Positions 45,085 to 56,008 of a DNA stretch of 63,833 bases are shown here, piece by piece. The notes beneath the pieces were generated by a model. The model made no database searches. It was not told the DNA's origin and saw only the letters and a program-made list of their open reading frames with translations. Each line of letters opens with the position of its first letter. Position 1 is the first letter of the stretch. Source of the DNA: Bacteroidaceae bacterium (GTDB taxonomy: Bacteria > Bacteroidota > Bacteroidia > Bacteroidales > Bacteroidaceae); the NCBI GenBank assembly GCA_017556045.1, contig JAFZFF010000069.1, positions 1 through 63,833 on the forward strand, written 5' to 3'. Both the position numbers and the translations under genes were made by a program.

Positions 45085-47838
45085 ATGATGAAGAAGACGT
45101 TTCTCTACGGCATAGGTCTGCTGTGTGGCGCACTGACTGCACAGGCACAGAATAGTACAGTAGCATCAGCCAACGACTATCTGCAAGCAAATAAAAGGAC
45201 CGATGCCACGGTACTCTTTAGCACCCAGGCTGAGGGGGTGAAGACTCCCGTAGTATGGGGACTCGACACGGCATGGCCCAGCGAAGATAATATGCGCCGA
45301 GGTGTGGCATTCATCGGAAAAGGACAATTGGCCGTAGCACGAGTATCATTTCAGCCAAGCGACCTCGTCGATGCCAATGGCGAGCTGAGTGCTGAGCAGA
45401 AGAAAGACCTTAATGAGAGACTTAACCTTGTAGCCCTTTCGGGAGTAAAAGACATCGCTCTCAATAGTGACCATGAGGTATTGTGCGATGGAGAGAACCC
45501 CACCGACGCATGGAAGAAGGAGGCAGCACAACATCGCAAAAACTACGTAGGGAAACCCGCAGAATGGATACGCCTCTTCAAGGCCACAGTAACCTATTGC
45601 CGCAACAAGGGATACAACGTAGTGAGCATCGCCCCCTTCAACGAAGCTGACTTCACAGACTGGAACCAGGGCACAATGGCCAACTTCAAGGAGATATGCC
45701 GATTGATGCAAGAGGATGAGTTCTTCGACGGTATACGCATCAGTGGTGGCAACACACTCAATAGCGACAAGGCCCTGGAATGGTATAATGGCCTTAGCCC
45801 CTACCTCACCGAAGGCAACACACATCAGCTGGCAGGCTCGTTTGATAACTATGCCCAGTTCTTTGAGACCGTGAGAGCCAATGGCCACTACGCCACTGCC
45901 GATGAACTACACAATGTGATGGAGGCCATGGTGGGTGTAGAGTACGGCATGCAGACTGGTATTTGGTGGGGATTTGACGGACGTGCCCGAGGCGAATACT
46001 GCAAAGCGACCTTTGGCGAGCGCCTCGGCTATGGCGAGGACCGCACACACTGGACCTCAGCATCGGTATACCGTATGCCTGACGGCCGTGTACAACTCTT
46101 CGGTGGCACCTCAGAGCGCCAAGCAAACAACTCATCATATCGCATCGTGTCACAAGACAAGGTAGCATATTTCGAGGGACACGGCCCCATGCACGAGTAC
46201 ATCATGGACCTGCCAGGAGGACCAGCCGGAAGTTATCAGAACGGACAAACCAATGCCGAGCGCGTGCTTGAGATACACACTGGCGAAGATGTCCCCCTCG
46301 CTCCTACTGAGGGAACATTCATCTTGATGAATAAGAAGAGCCGCAAGCTGCTCATGCCGCAAGGCGGAACCACCTCAAACGGCACCAACATCTGTCAAGG
46401 AGCCAACAAGAGACAAAGCTATCAGCAATGGGACATCACCCCTGTAGATAGTCGTGTAGGCGGAGACTTCAGCTACTTCTATATCTCAAATGCCAAGAAT
46501 GGCGCACAGCTCGACATCTCAAACTGGTCACTCAGCAATGGAGGCAATATCATCCTCTACAATGGAGGCAAGGGAACCAACGAACAGTGGTTCTTCCAGT
46601 ACGCTGGCGACGGATACTACTATATACTTAGCCGCCATAGCAACAAGTGTCTCGAGGTGGCAAATGGTAGCACCATAGACAACGCCAACATTCAGCAGAG
46701 CGAACTCACTGGCAGTGACCAGCAGATGTGGCGCTTGCTCCCCGTGAACGCGACATGCGAGCAGAATGCCCCTGATGCACCCACAGGATTGAAGGCTACA
46801 GCTACAACAGCCACCATCAACCTCATGTGGAATGCCGTGAACGAGGCTGACGTGACAGGTTATGCTATACTGCGCGCAGAGACTGAGTCGGGCCTACCCT
46901 ATCAATGGAACACCATCGCCCGCAACATCGCCGATACCACCTTCGTGGACAACACGGCTTCAGAAGGCCACACCTATATCTACAAGATTAAGGCAATAGA
47001 CCGCGCGATGAACCGCTCGGAATCGTCAGACTCTGTCACATCGACACTCACCGATGAGCGCGCACTCATCGCTTCATACCAATTCGAAGACACCATATGC
47101 GACATCTCGGGCAATCTACTCCACGCGTCACACTATGGTGAGCCCACCTACCTGACAGCCAAGAAGGGAGAACTCAAAGATAGAGTATTGGCATTGGATG
47201 GCAACTCTGAGTACCTACAACTACCTACAACTATCGCAAACAGAAGAGAGATGACCATCTCCCTCTGGGTACGCTGGAAGGGCAACGGCAACGGACAGAG
47301 AATATTCGACTTTGGCAATGGAGAGAACCAGTATATGTACCTCACCGCCAATGCCAGCAGCGGAAAGATGAGATTTGCCATCAAAGACAACGGCGATGAG
47401 CAATATATGGATATCAGCAAGCTGGGCACCTATTCATGGAAACATATCATACTCAGCATCAGTAATGATAGCATCACAGCATACATCAATGGCGAGCTCA
47501 AAGCATCTGCGAGCGACATCACACTGCGCCCATCAGACTTCTGCCCCATATTCAACTATGTAGGCCGTAGCCAGTCAAAGAGCGATGCGCTATTTAAGGG
47601 AGACATCGATGACTTGCGCATATTTAATTATGCCCTTTCAGCTGACGAAGCCATTGCTCTATACAACAATGCTGCTGATATAGAAAACATCTCTACCCCA
47701 CAGACCATCGTAAGCATAAGCTATTACACCCTTGATGGTATAGCTCACGACACACCCCAGAAGGGTATGAACATCGCCCGCATACTATATAGTGATGGTA
47801 GCACGAAGGCTGAGAAGGTATGGAATATGGAAAATTAA
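45085..47838 (+). CDS. secreted multidomain glycoside hydrolase-like protein
   Basis: 917 residues. The signal peptide (to about residue 22, ALTAQAQ) is followed by a TIM-barrel glycosidase-like domain (about 30-400). SIAPFNEADF has the Asn-Glu of clan GH-A acid/base sites and DELHNVMEAMVG may hold the nucleophile; a GH30-type relation is plausible but not firm. Then a ricin-B lectin domain (about 410-555, QQW motifs), fibronectin III (about 562-650), a LamG/concanavalin-like domain (about 658-850) and a C-terminal tail ISYYTLDG...ILYSDGSTKAEKV resembling a type IX secretion sorting domain. It likely acts on complex glycans at or outside the cell surface. Confidence 0.7.
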   Translation: MMKKTFLYGIGLLCGALTAQAQNSTVASANDYLQANKRTDATVLFSTQAEGVKTPVVWGLDTAWPSEDNMRRGVAFIGKGQLAVARVSFQPSDLVDANGELSAEQKKDLNERLNLVALSGVKDIALNSDHEVLCDGENPTDAWKKEAAQHRKNYVGKPAEWIRLFKATVTYCRNKGYNVVSIAPFNEADFTDWNQGTMANFKEICRLMQEDEFFDGIRISGGNTLNSDKALEWYNGLSPYLTEGNTHQLAGSFDNYAQFFETVRANGHYATADELHNVMEAMVGVEYGMQTGIWWGFDGRARGEYCKATFGERLGYGEDRTHWTSASVYRMPDGRVQLFGGTSERQANNSSYRIVSQDKVAYFEGHGPMHEYIMDLPGGPAGSYQNGQTNAERVLEIHTGEDVPLAPTEGTFILMNKKSRKLLMPQGGTTSNGTNICQGANKRQSYQQWDITPVDSRVGGDFSYFYISNAKNGAQLDISNWSLSNGGNIILYNGGKGTNEQWFFQYAGDGYYYILSRHSNKCLEVANGSTIDNANIQQSELTGSDQQMWRLLPVNATCEQNAPDAPTGLKATATTATINLMWNAVNEADVTGYAILRAETESGLPYQWNTIARNIADTTFVDNTASEGHTYIYKIKAIDRAMNRSESSDSVTSTLTDERALIASYQFEDTICDISGNLLHASHYGEPTYLTAKKGELKDRVLALDGNSEYLQLPTTIANRREMTISLWVRWKGNGNGQRIFDFGNGENQYMYLTANASSGKMRFAIKDNGDEQYMDISKLGTYSWKHIILSISNDSITAYINGELKASASDITLRPSDFCPIFNYVGRSQSKSDALFKGDIDDLRIFNYALSADEAIALYNNAADIENISTPQTIVSISYYTLDGIAHDTPQKGMNIARILYSDGSTKAEKVWNMEN

Positions 47839-51219: not shown

Positions 51220-54200
51220 TTACTTGAATTCATCCCAGCTCTTGATGGGGATATCGCTTGCGGTGAGACCACAGAAGGCATTGATGAACGCTTCAGCCAA
51301 GCGAGCATTGGTGAGCAAGGGAATATTGAGGTCTACAGCAGCACGGCGGATCTTGTAGCCATTAGAGAGCTCACCAGTGGTGAGGTTCTTGGGCAAGTTT
51401 ACTACCATGTCGATCTCCTTACGGTGGAGCATATCGAGTGCCTGAGGCTGCATACCTTCTTCGCTGGGCCAGTATACGAGTGTGTTCTCTACGCCATTCT
51501 CGGTAAGGTAGCGTGAGGTGCCACCTGTAGCGAAGAGCTTGTAACCCTTACTCTGGAGCAACTTAGCAGCATCGAGCATAGCAGCTTTCTGCTTAGCTGA
51601 GCCAGTAGAGAGAAGGATATTCTTCTCGGGGATACGCTGACCTACTGAGAGCATTGACTCGAGTACAGCTACTGAGGTATCGTCACCAATACAGCCTACC
51701 TCACCAGTTGAAGCCATGTCTACACCGAGTACGGGGTCTGCCTTCTGCAAGCGGTTGAATGAGAACTGTGAAGCCTTGATACCTACGTAGTCTAGGTCGA
51801 AGAGGTTCTTCGCAGGCTTCTCCACGGGCAAGCCAAGCATGATCTTGGTAGCAAGCTCGATGAAGTTGATCTTGAGTACCTTGCTCACGAAGGGGAATGA
51901 ACGTGAAGCACGGAGGTTACACTCGATTACCTTAATATCGTTGTCGCGAGCGAGGAACTGGATATTGAAAGGACCTGAGATATTGAGTTCCTTAGCAATC
52001 TTGCGGCTGATGCGCTTGATGCGACGCATGGTCTCTACATAGAGCTTCTGCGGGGGGAACTGGATGGTAGCGTCACCAGAGTGTACACCAGCAAACTCGA
52101 TGTGTTCACTGATAGCGTAGGCGATGATCTCACCGTCCTTAGCTACAGCATCCATCTCTACCTCCTTAGCATTCTCGATAAAGCGGCTTACCACTACAGG
52201 GTGCTTCTTCGATACGTTAGCAGCGAGATTGAGGAAGCGCTCGAGCTCTTCCTGGTTAGAACATACGTTCATTGCAGCACCTGAGAGCACATATGAGGGA
52301 CGCACGAGTACGGGGAAGCCTACCTTGTCGATGAACGCATTGATGTCGTCCATTGAGGTAAGGGCGCTCCACTCGGGCTGGTCAACACCGATGCGGTCGA
52401 GCATAGCAGAGAACTTATCGCGATCCTCTGCATTGTCGATATACTTAGCCTGTGTACCAAGGAGGCGTACGCCCATGCGGTCGAGGCTCATAGCGAGGTT
52501 GTTAGGAATCTGTCCACCAGTAGATACGATAACACCCATGGGGCACTCGAGCTCGATGACATCCATCACACGCTCGAAGGTAAGCTCGTCGAAGAACAAG
52601 CGGTCACACATATCATAGTCGGTAGATACGGTCTCGGGGTTGTAGTTGATCATCACGCTGCGGTAGCCCTCCTTGCGGATGGTGTTGAGTGCCTGCACAC
52701 CACACCAGTCGAACTCTACTGACGAACCGATACGGTAAGCACCTGAGCCGAGTACGATGATTGACTTGTCGTCACGAGCGAACTCGATATCATGCTCTGT
52801 ACCTGCATAGGTGAGGTAGAGGTAGTTGGTCTGTGCGGGATACTCACCAGCGAGAGTGTCGATCTGCTTCACTACGGGAGTGATGCCGAGTTCTTTACGA
52901 CGGTTGCGAACAGCCATCAAGCCCTCGTCAACACCGAGTTGCTCTTCGAGACCTACGGCACGAGACACCTGGAAGTCTGTGAAGCCCTGTACCTTTGCCT
53001 TGCGGAGGAGTTCTGCGGGAACCTCAGCCACGCCCTTGCATGCGTGAAGTTCCTTAGAGGTATTCATGATATTCTGCAACTTCTGGAGGAACCAGCGGTC
53101 AATCTTAGTGAGCTCGTGGATCTGGTCGATGGTGTATCCAGCGCGCATAGCCTTAGAGATCACGAAGATACGCTTATCAGTGGGCTCGCGCAATGCCTTG
53201 TCAATGTCGGCAATCTCGAGCTCCTTGTTCTCTACGAAGCCGTGCATGCCCTGACCAATCATGCGGAGACCCTTCTGGATAACCTCCTCGAAGGTGCGGC
53301 CAATTGACATCACCTCACCCACAGACTTCATGGCTGAGCCAATCTCGCGGTCAACGCCACGGAACTTACCGAGGTCCCAACGAGGAATCTTACATACGAT
53401 ATAGTCGATAGCAGGTTCAAAGAAGGCTGCTGTATCCTTAGTTACTGAATTCTTGAGTTCGAAGAGACCATAACCGCAACCAATCTTAGCAGCTACAAAA
53501 GCCAAGGGGAAACCGGTAGCCTTAGAAGCAAGAGCTGATGAGCGGCTCAAGCGAGCGTTCACCTCAATGACGCGGTAGTCCTCAGACTCAGTGTCGAAGG
53601 CAAACTGTACGTTACACTCACCCACGATGCCCACGTGGCGCACGATGCGGATAGCGAGCTCGCGAAGCTTGTTACACTCGCTTGCGGTCAATGTCTGTGT
53701 AGGAGCTACTACGATACTCTCACCGGTATGGATGCCGAGGGGGTCGAAGTTCTCCATATTACATACGGTAATGCAGTTGTCATAAGCGTCGCGCACTACC
53801 TCATACTCGATTTCCTTCCAGCCCTTGAGGCTCTTCTCTACGAGCACCTGGGGTGAGAATGAGAATGCCTTCTCAGCGAGCTTGTTGAGCTCCTCCTCGT
53901 TGTCACAGAAGCCAGAGCCGAGACCACCGAGTGCATAAGCTGCACGGATGATGACGGGGTAGCCCAAGCGCTCAGCAGCAGCACGAGCATCCTCGATGTT
54001 CTCTACAGCCTCACTCTTGATGATCTTCACATCGATCTCCTCGAGCTTGCGGTTGAAGAGTTCGCGGTCTTCAGTATCGATGATAGCCTGTACGGGAGTA
54101 CCGAGTACCTGTACGTTATATTTCTCGAGCACACCGCTCTCATAGAGCTTCACACCACAGTTGAGAGCAGTCTGTCCACCGAATGCGAGGAGGATGCCAT

Positions 54201-54444
54201 CGGGACGCTCCTTCTCGATAACCTTCTCTACGAAGAAGGGGGTCACGGGCAAGAAGTAGATCTTGTCTGCTACACCTTCACTGGTCTGTACGGTAGCAAT
54301 ATTGGGGTTGATGAGCACCGTGCTGATGCCCTCTTCGCGCAATGCCTTGAGCGCCTGTGAGCCAGAGTAGTCAAACTCACCAGCCTCACCGATCTTCAAT
54401 GCACCCGAACCCAAGAGCAATACTTTATTGAATTTCTTTTCCAT
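51220..54444 (-). CDS. carB: carbamoyl-phosphate synthase large subunit
   Basis: 1074 residues. It makes carbamoyl phosphate for pyrimidine and arginine synthesis from bicarbonate, two ATP and ammonia. Two homologous ATP-grasp halves are followed by an MGS-like allosteric domain (about 935-1074). The text is close to the eukaryotic CAD/CPS1 type: GEAGEFDYSGSQALKALREE, GGLGSGF, SLKGWKEIEYEVVRDA and ASTGEVGCIG. It starts 26 bp after carA. Because CarA has lost catalytic residues, CarB here may depend on free ammonia or on another glutaminase. Confidence 0.95.
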   Translation of the reverse strand: MEKKFNKVLLLGSGALKIGEAGEFDYSGSQALKALREEGISTVLINPNIATVQTSEGVADKIYFLPVTPFFVEKVIEKERPDGILLAFGGQTALNCGVKLYESGVLEKYNVQVLGTPVQAIIDTEDRELFNRKLEEIDVKIIKSEAVENIEDARAAAERLGYPVIIRAAYALGGLGSGFCDNEEELNKLAEKAFSFSPQVLVEKSLKGWKEIEYEVVRDAYDNCITVCNMENFDPLGIHTGESIVVAPTQTLTASECNKLRELAIRIVRHVGIVGECNVQFAFDTESEDYRVIEVNARLSRSSALASKATGFPLAFVAAKIGCGYGLFELKNSVTKDTAAFFEPAIDYIVCKIPRWDLGKFRGVDREIGSAMKSVGEVMSIGRTFEEVIQKGLRMIGQGMHGFVENKELEIADIDKALREPTDKRIFVISKAMRAGYTIDQIHELTKIDRWFLQKLQNIMNTSKELHACKGVAEVPAELLRKAKVQGFTDFQVSRAVGLEEQLGVDEGLMAVRNRRKELGITPVVKQIDTLAGEYPAQTNYLYLTYAGTEHDIEFARDDKSIIVLGSGAYRIGSSVEFDWCGVQALNTIRKEGYRSVMINYNPETVSTDYDMCDRLFFDELTFERVMDVIELECPMGVIVSTGGQIPNNLAMSLDRMGVRLLGTQAKYIDNAEDRDKFSAMLDRIGVDQPEWSALTSMDDINAFIDKVGFPVLVRPSYVLSGAAMNVCSNQEELERFLNLAANVSKKHPVVVSRFIENAKEVEMDAVAKDGEIIAYAISEHIEFAGVHSGDATIQFPPQKLYVETMRRIKRISRKIAKELNISGPFNIQFLARDNDIKVIECNLRASRSFPFVSKVLKINFIELATKIMLGLPVEKPAKNLFDLDYVGIKASQFSFNRLQKADPVLGVDMASTGEVGCIGDDTSVAVLESMLSVGQRIPEKNILLSTGSAKQKAAMLDAAKLLQSKGYKLFATGGTSRYLTENGVENTLVYWPSEEGMQPQALDMLHRKEIDMVVNLPKNLTTGELSNGYKIRRAAVDLNIPLLTNARLAEAFINAFCGLTASDIPIKSWDEFK

Positions 54445-54470: not shown

Positions 54471-55538
54471 TTAAATCAAATTAACAAAATCGTCCATCAA
54501 GTTATCCTTGCGGAAGCCACGGCTGCAAGCCTCGGGGGCAAACTGTGTGCCGAGCCAGGGCTTCTCCTCATGACGGATACCATCTACGGCGCCATCGTTG
54601 AGGTTGGTGAACAACACCTTCCAACCTGCGGGCAGTGTGCTTGCCATTACAGCGTAGCCAATGTTCTGGTTGGTGATGTAGCAGCTGTTGGTATCAGCGA
54701 GACGAGTGGGCTGGTTAGCACCGCGGTGACCGAACTTGAGCTTCTCTACCTGAGCACCTGCTGCCAAGCCGAGCAACTGGTTGCCAAGGCCGATACCGAG
54801 GATGGGCTTACCTGTCTCCATAGCCTTGCGGATGTTAGCCACGGTGTCACCATAGAGAGCGGGGTTACCGGGACCTGTGGTCACCACCACTGCATCGTAA
54901 GCCATTGCCGAGAAATCATAGTTATAAGGAACGCGTACCACTTCTAGGCCGCGAGCCACGAGGTTGCGGATAAGACTATACTTCACACCGCAATCCACTA
55001 CTACCACTTTCTTCGCACCCTCACCATATGTGATAGGCTCAGTGCAAGTAACATTAGCTACCTGGTCAATGGCATCATAAGGTTGAGCGTTTAGGGTTGA
55101 GGGTTGAGCGTCGCCAATGATGATTTGTCCACCCATCACGCCATTGTCGCGTATAGCCTTGGTGATAGCACGGGTGTCTACGCCAGTGATGCCAGGCACG
55201 CCCTCACGCTTCATCCACGCATCGAGTGTCTCAGCAGCATTCCAGTGGCTATATTCCACACTATAATCAGTTACGATGAGTCCGCTCACCTGCATCTTGT
55301 TGCTCTCGAAGAACTTCTCCAAGCCCAGTTCCTTCACTTCGTGTGAGGGCACACCATAGTTGCCCACCAACGGGTAAGTCAGCACCAAGAGCTGACCAGC
55401 ATATGCGGCGTCCGTCAAGCTCTCGGGATAACCAGTCATAGCTGTACAGAACACCACCTCGCCTACTGCAGGCTTCTCTGAGCCGAAAGCAGTACCTTCG
55501 AAGCGCATTCCATTGTCCAATACTAATGTAGCTTTCAT
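54471..55538 (-). CDS. carA: carbamoyl-phosphate synthase small subunit, catalytic residues lost
   Basis: 355 residues. The N-terminal domain (MKATLVLDNGMRFEG, GYPESLTD) and the class I glutamine amidotransferase domain are both recognisable and full length. The nucleophile motif, normally GICLGxQ, reads GIGLGNQ (Cys to Gly, codon GGC). The catalytic His motif QFHPEA reads QFAPEA (His to Ala). QNHG reads QNIG. The Glu of the triad remains. Glutaminase activity is therefore not expected, like the ammonia-dependent mitochondrial CPS1. An in-frame interspersed repeat (55081-55110) encodes AQPSTLNAQP. The frame is intact, so the gene is probably still expressed. Confidence 0.88.
   Translation of the reverse strand: MKATLVLDNGMRFEGTAFGSEKPAVGEVVFCTAMTGYPESLTDAAYAGQLLVLTYPLVGNYGVPSHEVKELGLEKFFESNKMQVSGLIVTDYSVEYSHWNAAETLDAWMKREGVPGITGVDTRAITKAIRDNGVMGGQIIIGDAQPSTLNAQPYDAIDQVANVTCTEPITYGEGAKKVVVVDCGVKYSLIRNLVARGLEVVRVPYNYDFSAMAYDAVVVTTGPGNPALYGDTVANIRKAMETGKPILGIGLGNQLLGLAAGAQVEKLKFGHRGANQPTRLADTNSCYITNQNIGYAVMASTLPAGWKVLFTNLNDGAVDGIRHEEKPWLGTQFAPEACSRGFRKDNLMDDFVNLI
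55081..55110 (-). repeat. interspersed repeat within carA
   Basis: The minus strand reads tandem GCTCAACCCTCAACCCT-type units, like the CTCAACC repeats that occur between genes in Bacteroidales. Here it lies inside carA, in frame, and adds about ten residues (AQPSTLNAQP) between the two CarA domains. Confidence 0.6.
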
Positions 55539-55584
55539 GTTATACTTTTATATCGTTTAATATATTAATATTTTTCTCTCTCAA

Positions 55585-55631
55585 TTATAAAAAACATCCC
55601 CTTACAGCGGCAACGACGCTTGCAAAGGGAT
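55585..55631 (-). terminator. terminator/attenuator upstream of carA
   Basis: ATCCCCTT (55597-55604) pairs with AAAGGGAT (55624-55631, one wobble), with inner AGCG/CGCT. On the minus strand it runs into GTTTTTTAT. The stop codon of the 56-codon ORF (55602-55604) lies inside the 3' arm of the stem, so translation would clash with hairpin formation. Confidence 0.7.
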
Positions 55632-55772
55632 AACACTCAACAACAAAAAAAGCAAAGAATTCAAAGTTACCGACTGTTTATCGTCGATAGCATCACACCA
55701 CTGAGGATACTGCTTCGTGGCCTCCATAGGAGCCCACTTTGATAGCCAATAACCTAAGATGTGCGACTTCAT
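55602..55772 (-). CDS. small protein or leader peptide upstream of carAB
   Basis: 56 residues, MKSHILGYWLSKWAPMEATK... with a C-terminal hydrophobic segment (LNSLLFLLLSVIPLQASL). A purine-rich AAGGAAAG lies about 8 bases upstream of the ATG, unusual in this genome, and a perfect promoter (55797-55828) precedes it. The stop is inside a terminator hairpin and carA follows 64 bp later without its own clear promoter. It may be a small membrane protein, or a leader ORF whose translation controls read-through into carAB. Confidence 0.6.
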   Translation of the reverse strand: MKSHILGYWLSKWAPMEATKQYPQWCDAIDDKQSVTLNSLLFLLLSVIPLQASLPL

Positions 55773-55796
55773 AACTCTACTTTCCTTAATTTCTTG

Positions 55797-55828
55797 CAAA
55801 AATAGTGCAAATCGAATGAAAAACCAAA
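55797..55828 (-). promoter_or_regulatory. promoter of the small ORF and possibly carAB
   Basis: Minus strand: TTTG (55828-55825), 20-bp spacer, TATTTTTG (55804-55797). Full consensus match, start expected near 55790, about 18 bp before the small ORF. Confidence 0.75.
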
Positions 55829-55973
55829 TTTATTTAAGCATTTCTGAGGTTATTCCAATTTTCAAGCTGCAAAGTAGAGTTAAGTCTGTGTTTACCGAGA
55901 GAAAATAACGCCAACAATTTTCATTATTTCTCTCAAATCTACCATTATTACGCAAGTTCTCCGTATCTTTGCA

Positions 55974-55981
55974 AATTATAT
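55974..55981 (+). promoter_or_regulatory. -7 box TATCTTTG before the S9 peptidase gene
   Basis: TATCTTTG lies 28 bp upstream of the ATG at 56009. The stretch 55829-56008 otherwise shows no gene. Confidence 0.6.
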
Positions 55982-56008
55982 GTATTACAAATATAAAGTT
56001 ATATAAGT

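Follow-up and report, generated by a model that had tools for sequence, protein, structure and literature searches.

A probable ammonia-dependent carbamoyl phosphate synthetase with a non-catalytic CarA in uncultured gut Bacteroidales

A 2018 review names glutamine as the nitrogen donor that matters physiologically for the carbamoyl phosphate synthetase (CPS) of E. coli, and extends this statement to every bacterial CPS (PMC6245113). Most glutamine amidotransferases can use external ammonia (PMC10526850), and CTP synthase is among the enzymes that can do so (PMC9138612). In human CPS1, the glutamine amidotransferase (GATase)-like domain has lost its catalytic cysteine and has Ser294 there; with this domain dead, a different route has been proposed for the entry of ammonia (PMC4655335). 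The CPS III of Alcolapia represents an evolutionary shift of CPS toward ammonia, as we propose for the enzyme described here, but it comes from a fish and has kept the ability to use glutamine (PMC7657897).

Here we describe a CPS from an uncultured member of the Bacteroidaceae whose small subunit, CarA, has lost the catalytic residues of its glutaminase domain. We refer to the whole stretch of DNA that we analyzed (63,833 nucleotides) as the window. We consider it highly likely that the window enzyme is an ammonia-dependent bacterial CPS that keeps CarA as a non-catalytic subunit. Like animal CPS1, which is mitochondrial and uses ammonia, it combines a GATase-like domain that lacks the catalytic cysteine with an intact synthetase, and animal CPS1 is the best PDB match for both of its subunits. 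On the other hand, CPS1 is one chain and needs N-acetylglutamate, while the window enzyme has two subunits, with glycine in place of the cysteine and with both histidines lost. (A CPS1-style fusion is found in a sister lineage of the window's clade.) We rejected the idea that the similarity reflects kinship with animal CPS1. An intact CarA from the Bacteroidales (L009) also matches human CPS1 best, at 396 bits, while the best E. coli chain reaches 268 bits, so the functional resemblance of the window enzyme to CPS1 looks convergent. We call the window enzyme a new form of CPS, which appears to work like CPS1 but is no member of it. The lineage with this dead CarA would be a bacterial parallel to animal CPS1, and by its sequence it speaks against glutamine as the donor for all bacterial CPS.

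The catalytic positions that are lost in the window's CarA are also changed in the E. coli small-subunit chains 1c30_B and 1a9x_B, which have serine at 269 and asparagine at 353. (Residues are numbered as in E. coli CarA.) We take those to be engineered single changes, whereas in the window's clade several losses have been fixed in nature. Unlike the window enzyme, the small CPS of Methanobrevibacter smithii, which has reportedly been assayed with ammonia, is a 41 kDa dimer without CarA. It resembles the window enzyme in coming from a gut microbe and in having no glutaminase part (PMC6022934).

The window's CarA has 355 amino acids and no internal stop. It belongs to the CarA family: its score against TIGR01368 (CPS small subunit) is 372 bits, above the curated cut-off of 307 bits; both domains of the family (PF00988 and PF00117) are present; and carB adjoins it. 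The preliminary description had reported the motifs GIGLGNQ, QNIG, and QFAPEA in an intact frame, and this was borne out by the translation and by the alignment to E. coli CarA (Table 1). Gly241, Gly243, Gln273, Asn311, and Glu355 (Glu336 in the window's own numbering) are kept. The Cys-His-Glu triad is incomplete, as in the CPS I type, and the pair that marks CPS II, Cys269 and His353, is missing. We also found two losses beyond those described earlier, at Ser47 and Asn240. Across the 131 distinct CarA sequences that we compared (which outside the two genera discussed below are a sample of the distribution), Ser47, Asn240, Cys269, Asn311, His312, His353, and Glu355 are retained in all 107 distinct intact CarA. 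Because the intact proteins keep all five of the residues that the window's CarA has replaced, its changes are far beyond chance.

Table 1. Coordinates of the features discussed in the text. Plain positions refer to the window; those with an L number refer to other loci.
Feature	Position	Strand	Basis or remark
carA, CPS small subunit, dead class I glutaminase domain	54471..55538	-	frame, family profile, Pfam
Gly250, codon GGC, replaces catalytic Cys269	54789..54791	-	alignment to E. coli CarA
Ile293, codon ATT, replaces His312	54660..54662	-	alignment to E. coli CarA
Ala334, codon GCC, replaces catalytic His353	54537..54539	-	alignment to E. coli CarA
Ala45, codon GCA, replaces Ser47	55404..55406	-	comparison across CarA set
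Thr221, codon ACA, replaces Asn240	54876..54878	-	comparison across CarA set
carB, intact CPS large subunit, both ATP-grasp halves	51220..54444	-	family profile, Pfam, alignment
Stretch upstream of carA without PurF-like gene	55539..56008	.	PurF-like gene adjoins carA in 5/8 clade genomes
GMP synthase of the window genome, no working GATase domain	L348:3336-4640		also L357, L363 and others
CTP synthases of the window clade	L381-L386		G134, G053, G072, G207, G105, G203

CarA of the window's type was found in 8 of the 19 genomes of its genus, which we call the window clade. The other seven copies are 81-98% identical to the window's, and each adjoins carB. Scanning named genomes turned up relatives in seven metagenome assemblies; five are from hindgut (two from sheep and one each from water buffalo, water deer, and roe deer), and no host is stated for the other two. 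Whether relatives share the changes had been proposed as a check, and all eight genomes share all five losses: they have glycine at 269; alanine, isoleucine, or valine at 312; alanine at 353; alanine at 47; and threonine or alanine at 240. The glycine at 269 is encoded by GGC in the window and by GGT, GGG, or GGA in the other seven members, so it is not a sequencing error. (This excludes, for Gly269, the misread TGC codon that had been raised.) In 6 of the 8 members the motif is GIGLGCQ, and we considered if the catalytic cysteine had shifted by three residues. We rejected this because the window and G105 have asparagine there and because His353 is absent from all eight. Among the other 11 genomes of the genus, five have a fused dead CarA along with a normal CarA, two have a normal CarA only, and four (62-78% complete) have no CarA match.

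The species might also have a second, intact carA that is missing from the assemblies. The evidence for the clade comes from incomplete metagenome assemblies (76-92% complete, and 78% for the window genome), and a second, intact CarA-CarB does occur in sister species of the genus. But the search for a second carA that the preliminary description had called for turned up no intact copy in any of the 8 clade genomes. If incompleteness alone were the cause, the chance of missing a universal second carA in all 8 would be near 6e-7 (the product of the missing fractions, assuming independence). In seven of the genomes, including the window genome, there is a single CarA match. The eighth, G134, has one full CarA and two halves at contig ends, and the half that spans the active site is also dead. 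Similarly, CarB is single in the clade except for a near-identical duplicate in G134 and two complementary contig-end pieces in G105, and every CarB seen in the clade is of one type. In a second genus, genomes that have only a dead CarA are 90-100% complete. Overall, a missing intact carA seems most unlikely.

Dead CarA proteins occur in two other lineages. In five sister species of the genus (G148, G089, G120, G176, and G206), which also have a normal CarA-CarB pair, a dead CarA is fused to CarB. The fused chain has 1439 amino acids in the four complete copies (the copy in G120 is cut by a contig end). Its motifs are GLGLGSQ, GLGLGCQ, or GIGLGCQ; QNHG; and QFNPE (four sequences, which have asparagine at 353) or QFCPE (one sequence). 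In the second genus (g25), which belongs to the same family, all 11 sampled genomes have GIGMGCL, GVGMGCL, or GIEMGCL together with QNHN and MFHSE. Five of them have the dead CarA only (G024, G050, G070, G088, and G119, which are the 90-100% complete genomes mentioned above), and the remaining six have an additional normal CarA with GICLGNQ, QNHG, and QFHPEA. Glycine at 269 is common to all three dead lineages, except for two g25 sequences with glutamate. In a tree of CarB alone (the first 500 residues, 99 rows), the three dead lineages group together with a support of 87/96, with the bootstrap below the 95 mark; they also group together in a tree of full-length CarB (78 rows, quick search), with an SH-aLRT of 99. 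Because the CarB trees join the three lineages, the loss of the glutaminase looks old. The simplest reading would be one old loss followed by erosion, and the alternative is independent losses.

Fusion was considered as a sign of ammonia use and was rejected, since fused CarA-CarB proteins with Cys269 and His353 exist in the order (frames of 1448-1471 amino acids; L099, L113, and L120-L123). As a separate observation, several genera have a CarA joined to an N-terminal portion of CarB (L149 and L151; frames of 938-1006 amino acids; Pfam results for two). A stand-alone second type of CarB (L171, L175, L176, L411, L412, and others) forms its own clade in the CarB tree. We found one stand-alone CarB in each of 17 chosen genomes from the family that had no CarA match (12 genomes) or weak ones (5 genomes, 1e-6 to 1e-8).

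Could carA be a decaying pseudogene, with CarB working alone? CarA does evolve faster than in relatives, and other genera of the family have CarB without a detectable CarA. Compared to 63 intact pairs with the same type of CarB, the CarA proteins of the window clade are 54% identical on average, vs. 87% for CarB (residues 7-400). The ratio of CarA divergence to CarB divergence (the median ratio of -ln identity) is 2.7 in the 63 intact pairs; for the 7 sequences of the window clade it is 11, for the 5 of the fused lineage it is 10, and for the 11 of g25 it is 4. But carA is open in all 8 clade genomes, each time beside carB and at 81-98% identity to the window's, and its dN/dS is around 0.1. 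Specifically, dN/dS in the window clade is 0.096 for CarA and 0.022 for CarB (21 pairs of 7 sequences), while in close intact pairs it is 0.036 for CarA and 0.028 for CarB. Across the three dead lineages, the values are 0.096, 0.066, and 0.074 for CarA and 0.015-0.038 for CarB. CarA thus seems to be under relaxed but still purifying selection: it evolves faster, yet it is kept. The replacements are also unevenly spread. We considered the 98 CarA positions at which 98% or more of the intact proteins agree; 15 of them are replaced in the clade, 12 of which are in the GATase domain. This amounts to 12/54 conserved positions in the GATase domain and 3/43 in the N-terminal domain (P = 0.049, Fisher exact test, computed ignoring relatedness). 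In other words, 40 of the 43 conserved N-terminal positions are not replaced, and two of the three exceptions are positions 46 and 47. We consider decay of carA to be very unlikely.

We return to carA as a gene for a retained, non-catalytic subunit, and to its partner. In the window, carB lies 26 bases downstream of carA, and throughout the clade the two are separate frames instead of the single fused chain of the CPS I type. The window's CarB scores 1547 bits against TIGR01369, above the cut-off of 1027 bits. Identical residues are aligned at Cys232, Ala251, and Ala314, which we take to be the E. coli numbers of the ammonia-tunnel gate. (The gate of CPS1 is named in PMC4655335.) CarB would use free ammonia, along with bicarbonate and two ATP, to make carbamoyl phosphate. 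CarA would no longer be able to hydrolyze glutamine; it presumably stabilizes CarB and shapes the entry of ammonia, as the dead domain of CPS1 may do. We infer the loss of glutaminase activity, the use of ammonia in vivo, and the structural role of CarA from the sequences. High ammonia in the hindgut would be a reasonable cause for the loss of the glutaminase.

GMP synthase and CTP synthase have lost glutaminase residues in the same lineage, which favors the direct use of ammonia. In a tree of GMP synthases, there are two deep lineages (support 100/100): full-length proteins, and proteins with no GATase domain (327 amino acids) or a shrunken one (435 amino acids, the window's type). (L320, with a frame of 532 amino acids, groups with the full-length proteins and was counted as full. 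L346, from G207, was too short and was excluded from the tree.) In the window clade, CTP synthase has QYYPQY instead of QFHPEY in 6 of the 6 genomes where it was found, and GIGLGMQ instead of GICLGMQ in 5 of the 6. In G050 and G088, CTP synthase has GIQLGMQ, with glutamine in place of the cysteine, and the histidine and glutamate are kept. As different residues were lost in these two groups, there were likely at least two losses. No CTP synthase turned up in the window genome, G162, G070, or G119.

We then counted these losses per genome, so that shared ancestry enters into all of the counts. Among the 13 sampled genomes that have only a dead CarA, a full-length GMP synthase was not found in 12, and the catalytic residues of CTP synthase were lost in 8 of the 9 where the enzyme was found. 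In the same two genera, 13 genomes have an intact CarA (11 of them alongside a dead one), and in every one of these CTP synthase is intact and GMP synthase is full, with its motifs present. The genomes that we searched for GMP and CTP synthase, and also for stand-alone CarB, the PurF-like protein, carbamoyltransferases, and PF00117, were chosen by hand and are not a random sample. In G207, the sole GMP synthase that was found runs into a contig end and is cut short of its GATase part. The start of this sequence (L354) has residues that we take to resemble a translated sequencing adapter, so the contig end is probably an assembly artefact.

There are some exceptions. G024, which is 100% complete and has only a dead CarA, is an exception for both enzymes: its GMP synthase is full, and the residues are intact in a fragment of its CTP synthase. 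Among genomes where only CarB was found, G009 and G002 have an intact CTP synthase and a full GMP synthase, while in G020 the GMP synthase is truncated but the cysteine, histidine, and glutamate of CTP synthase are kept. In G012, which is 99% complete and has an intact CarA, there was no match for GMP synthase. Given these five genomes, the losses in CarA, GMP synthase, and CTP synthase are not always coupled. Nor is the loss general to all glutaminases, as the residues are kept in PurL of the clade member G053 and in HisH of the window genome. The best reading would be that the ammonia-dependent CPS belongs to a concerted shift away from glutamine and toward ammonia. These uncultured gut bacteria, which were mostly sampled from the hindgut of ruminants, probably build nucleotides with free ammonia and not with glutamine.

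The preliminary description had left two options, free ammonia or another glutaminase. The intact CarB, the fact that no second intact carA was found in the clade genomes, and the losses in CTP and GMP synthase strengthen the case for ammonia. As for the other option, the glutaminase that feeds CarB would most likely be a PurF-like class II amidotransferase of 628 amino acids (L201:10423-12306 and equivalents), which is encoded upstream of carA in many Bacteroidales and is a frequent neighbor of carA in the family. Its gene lies directly before carA in the window clade (L201, L202, and L036), the fused lineage (L199), and the second genus (G050, G088, G070, and G119), and it directly precedes the stand-alone CarB in G020 and G200. 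The protein has a cysteine near its N terminus, after a short leader, and a PRPP-type motif. But it is below the curated cut-off for purF (124 vs. 350 bits), and its gene also adjoins an intact CarA (L157). More importantly, although it had matches in 26 of the 30 genomes searched, it was not found in the window genome (G000), G105, G203, or G024 (which is 100% complete), all of which have a dead CarA. We also examined the four matches in the window genome to PF00117, the class I GATase family, which does not cover PurL-type or class II GATases. These are CarA, a HisH-like protein, a fusion that resembles a C26 peptidase and a dipeptidase, and the shrunken GATase of GMP synthase (the HisH-like and fusion proteins were named by us from their sequences and neighbors). 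None of the four is an orphan glutaminase that resembles a replacement. As the PurF-like protein was not found either, we saw no obvious replacement in the window species, and we consider supply by another glutaminase to be unlikely.

Carbamoyl phosphate appears to be in demand. Two carbamoyltransferases were found in each of the 16 genomes tested, and we assigned their types in the window genome: one scores above the cut-off as an aspartate carbamoyltransferase, while for the other the best match is N-acetylornithine carbamoyltransferase (286 bits, vs. a cut-off of 288).

In these genera, the intact CarA-CarB genes have GOGAT, dapF, dapL, and guaA-pyrG beside them (L200), or else a purF of 463 amino acids (L194 and L198), and in G205 they adjoin asnB, pyrG, and glutamine synthetase. 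(Pfam identified a glutamine synthetase III in G144 and asnB in G205; the other names are our assignments from the sequences.) G200, from a third genus, has an intact purF-carA-carB-guaA-pyrG row along with a CarB that lacks CarA and a GMP synthase that is truncated. Of its two copies of CTP synthase, one is broken, with GIGLGMQ and IYEPQY, and the other is intact. The dual genes of G200 and the neighborhoods of intact CarA suggest that there is a glutamine set and an ammonia set, and that the window clade has only the latter. More broadly, some gut Bacteroidales might run nucleotide synthesis on free ammonia via the ammonia set (a CPS with a dead CarA or none, a GMP synthase whose glutaminase domain is missing or not working, and a CTP synthase that has lost catalytic residues). 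Some relatives would also keep the glutamine set (carAB, often joined by guaA, pyrG, or purF) near genes for nitrogen assimilation, namely GOGAT or glutamine synthetase III. In this scheme, the window species would have lost the glutamine set and would depend on ammonia for carbamoyl phosphate, GMP, and CTP. We see this broader scheme as evenly poised between right and wrong.

In our searches of the open-licence literature in PMC, we recognized no description of a dead bacterial CarA or of a GMP synthase without GATase in the Bacteroidales. Because the NCBIfam models call these proteins glutamine-hydrolyzing, with scores above their cut-offs, the nitrogen source may be wrong in annotations and metabolic models of gut bacteria. 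These lineages would also make the costs and benefits of giving up ammonia channeling comparable across three enzymes. Separately, elsewhere in the window (45085-47838) is a gene for a protein of 917 amino acids with ricin-type beta-trefoil lectin and laminin-G-like domains, which is probably involved in glycan binding.
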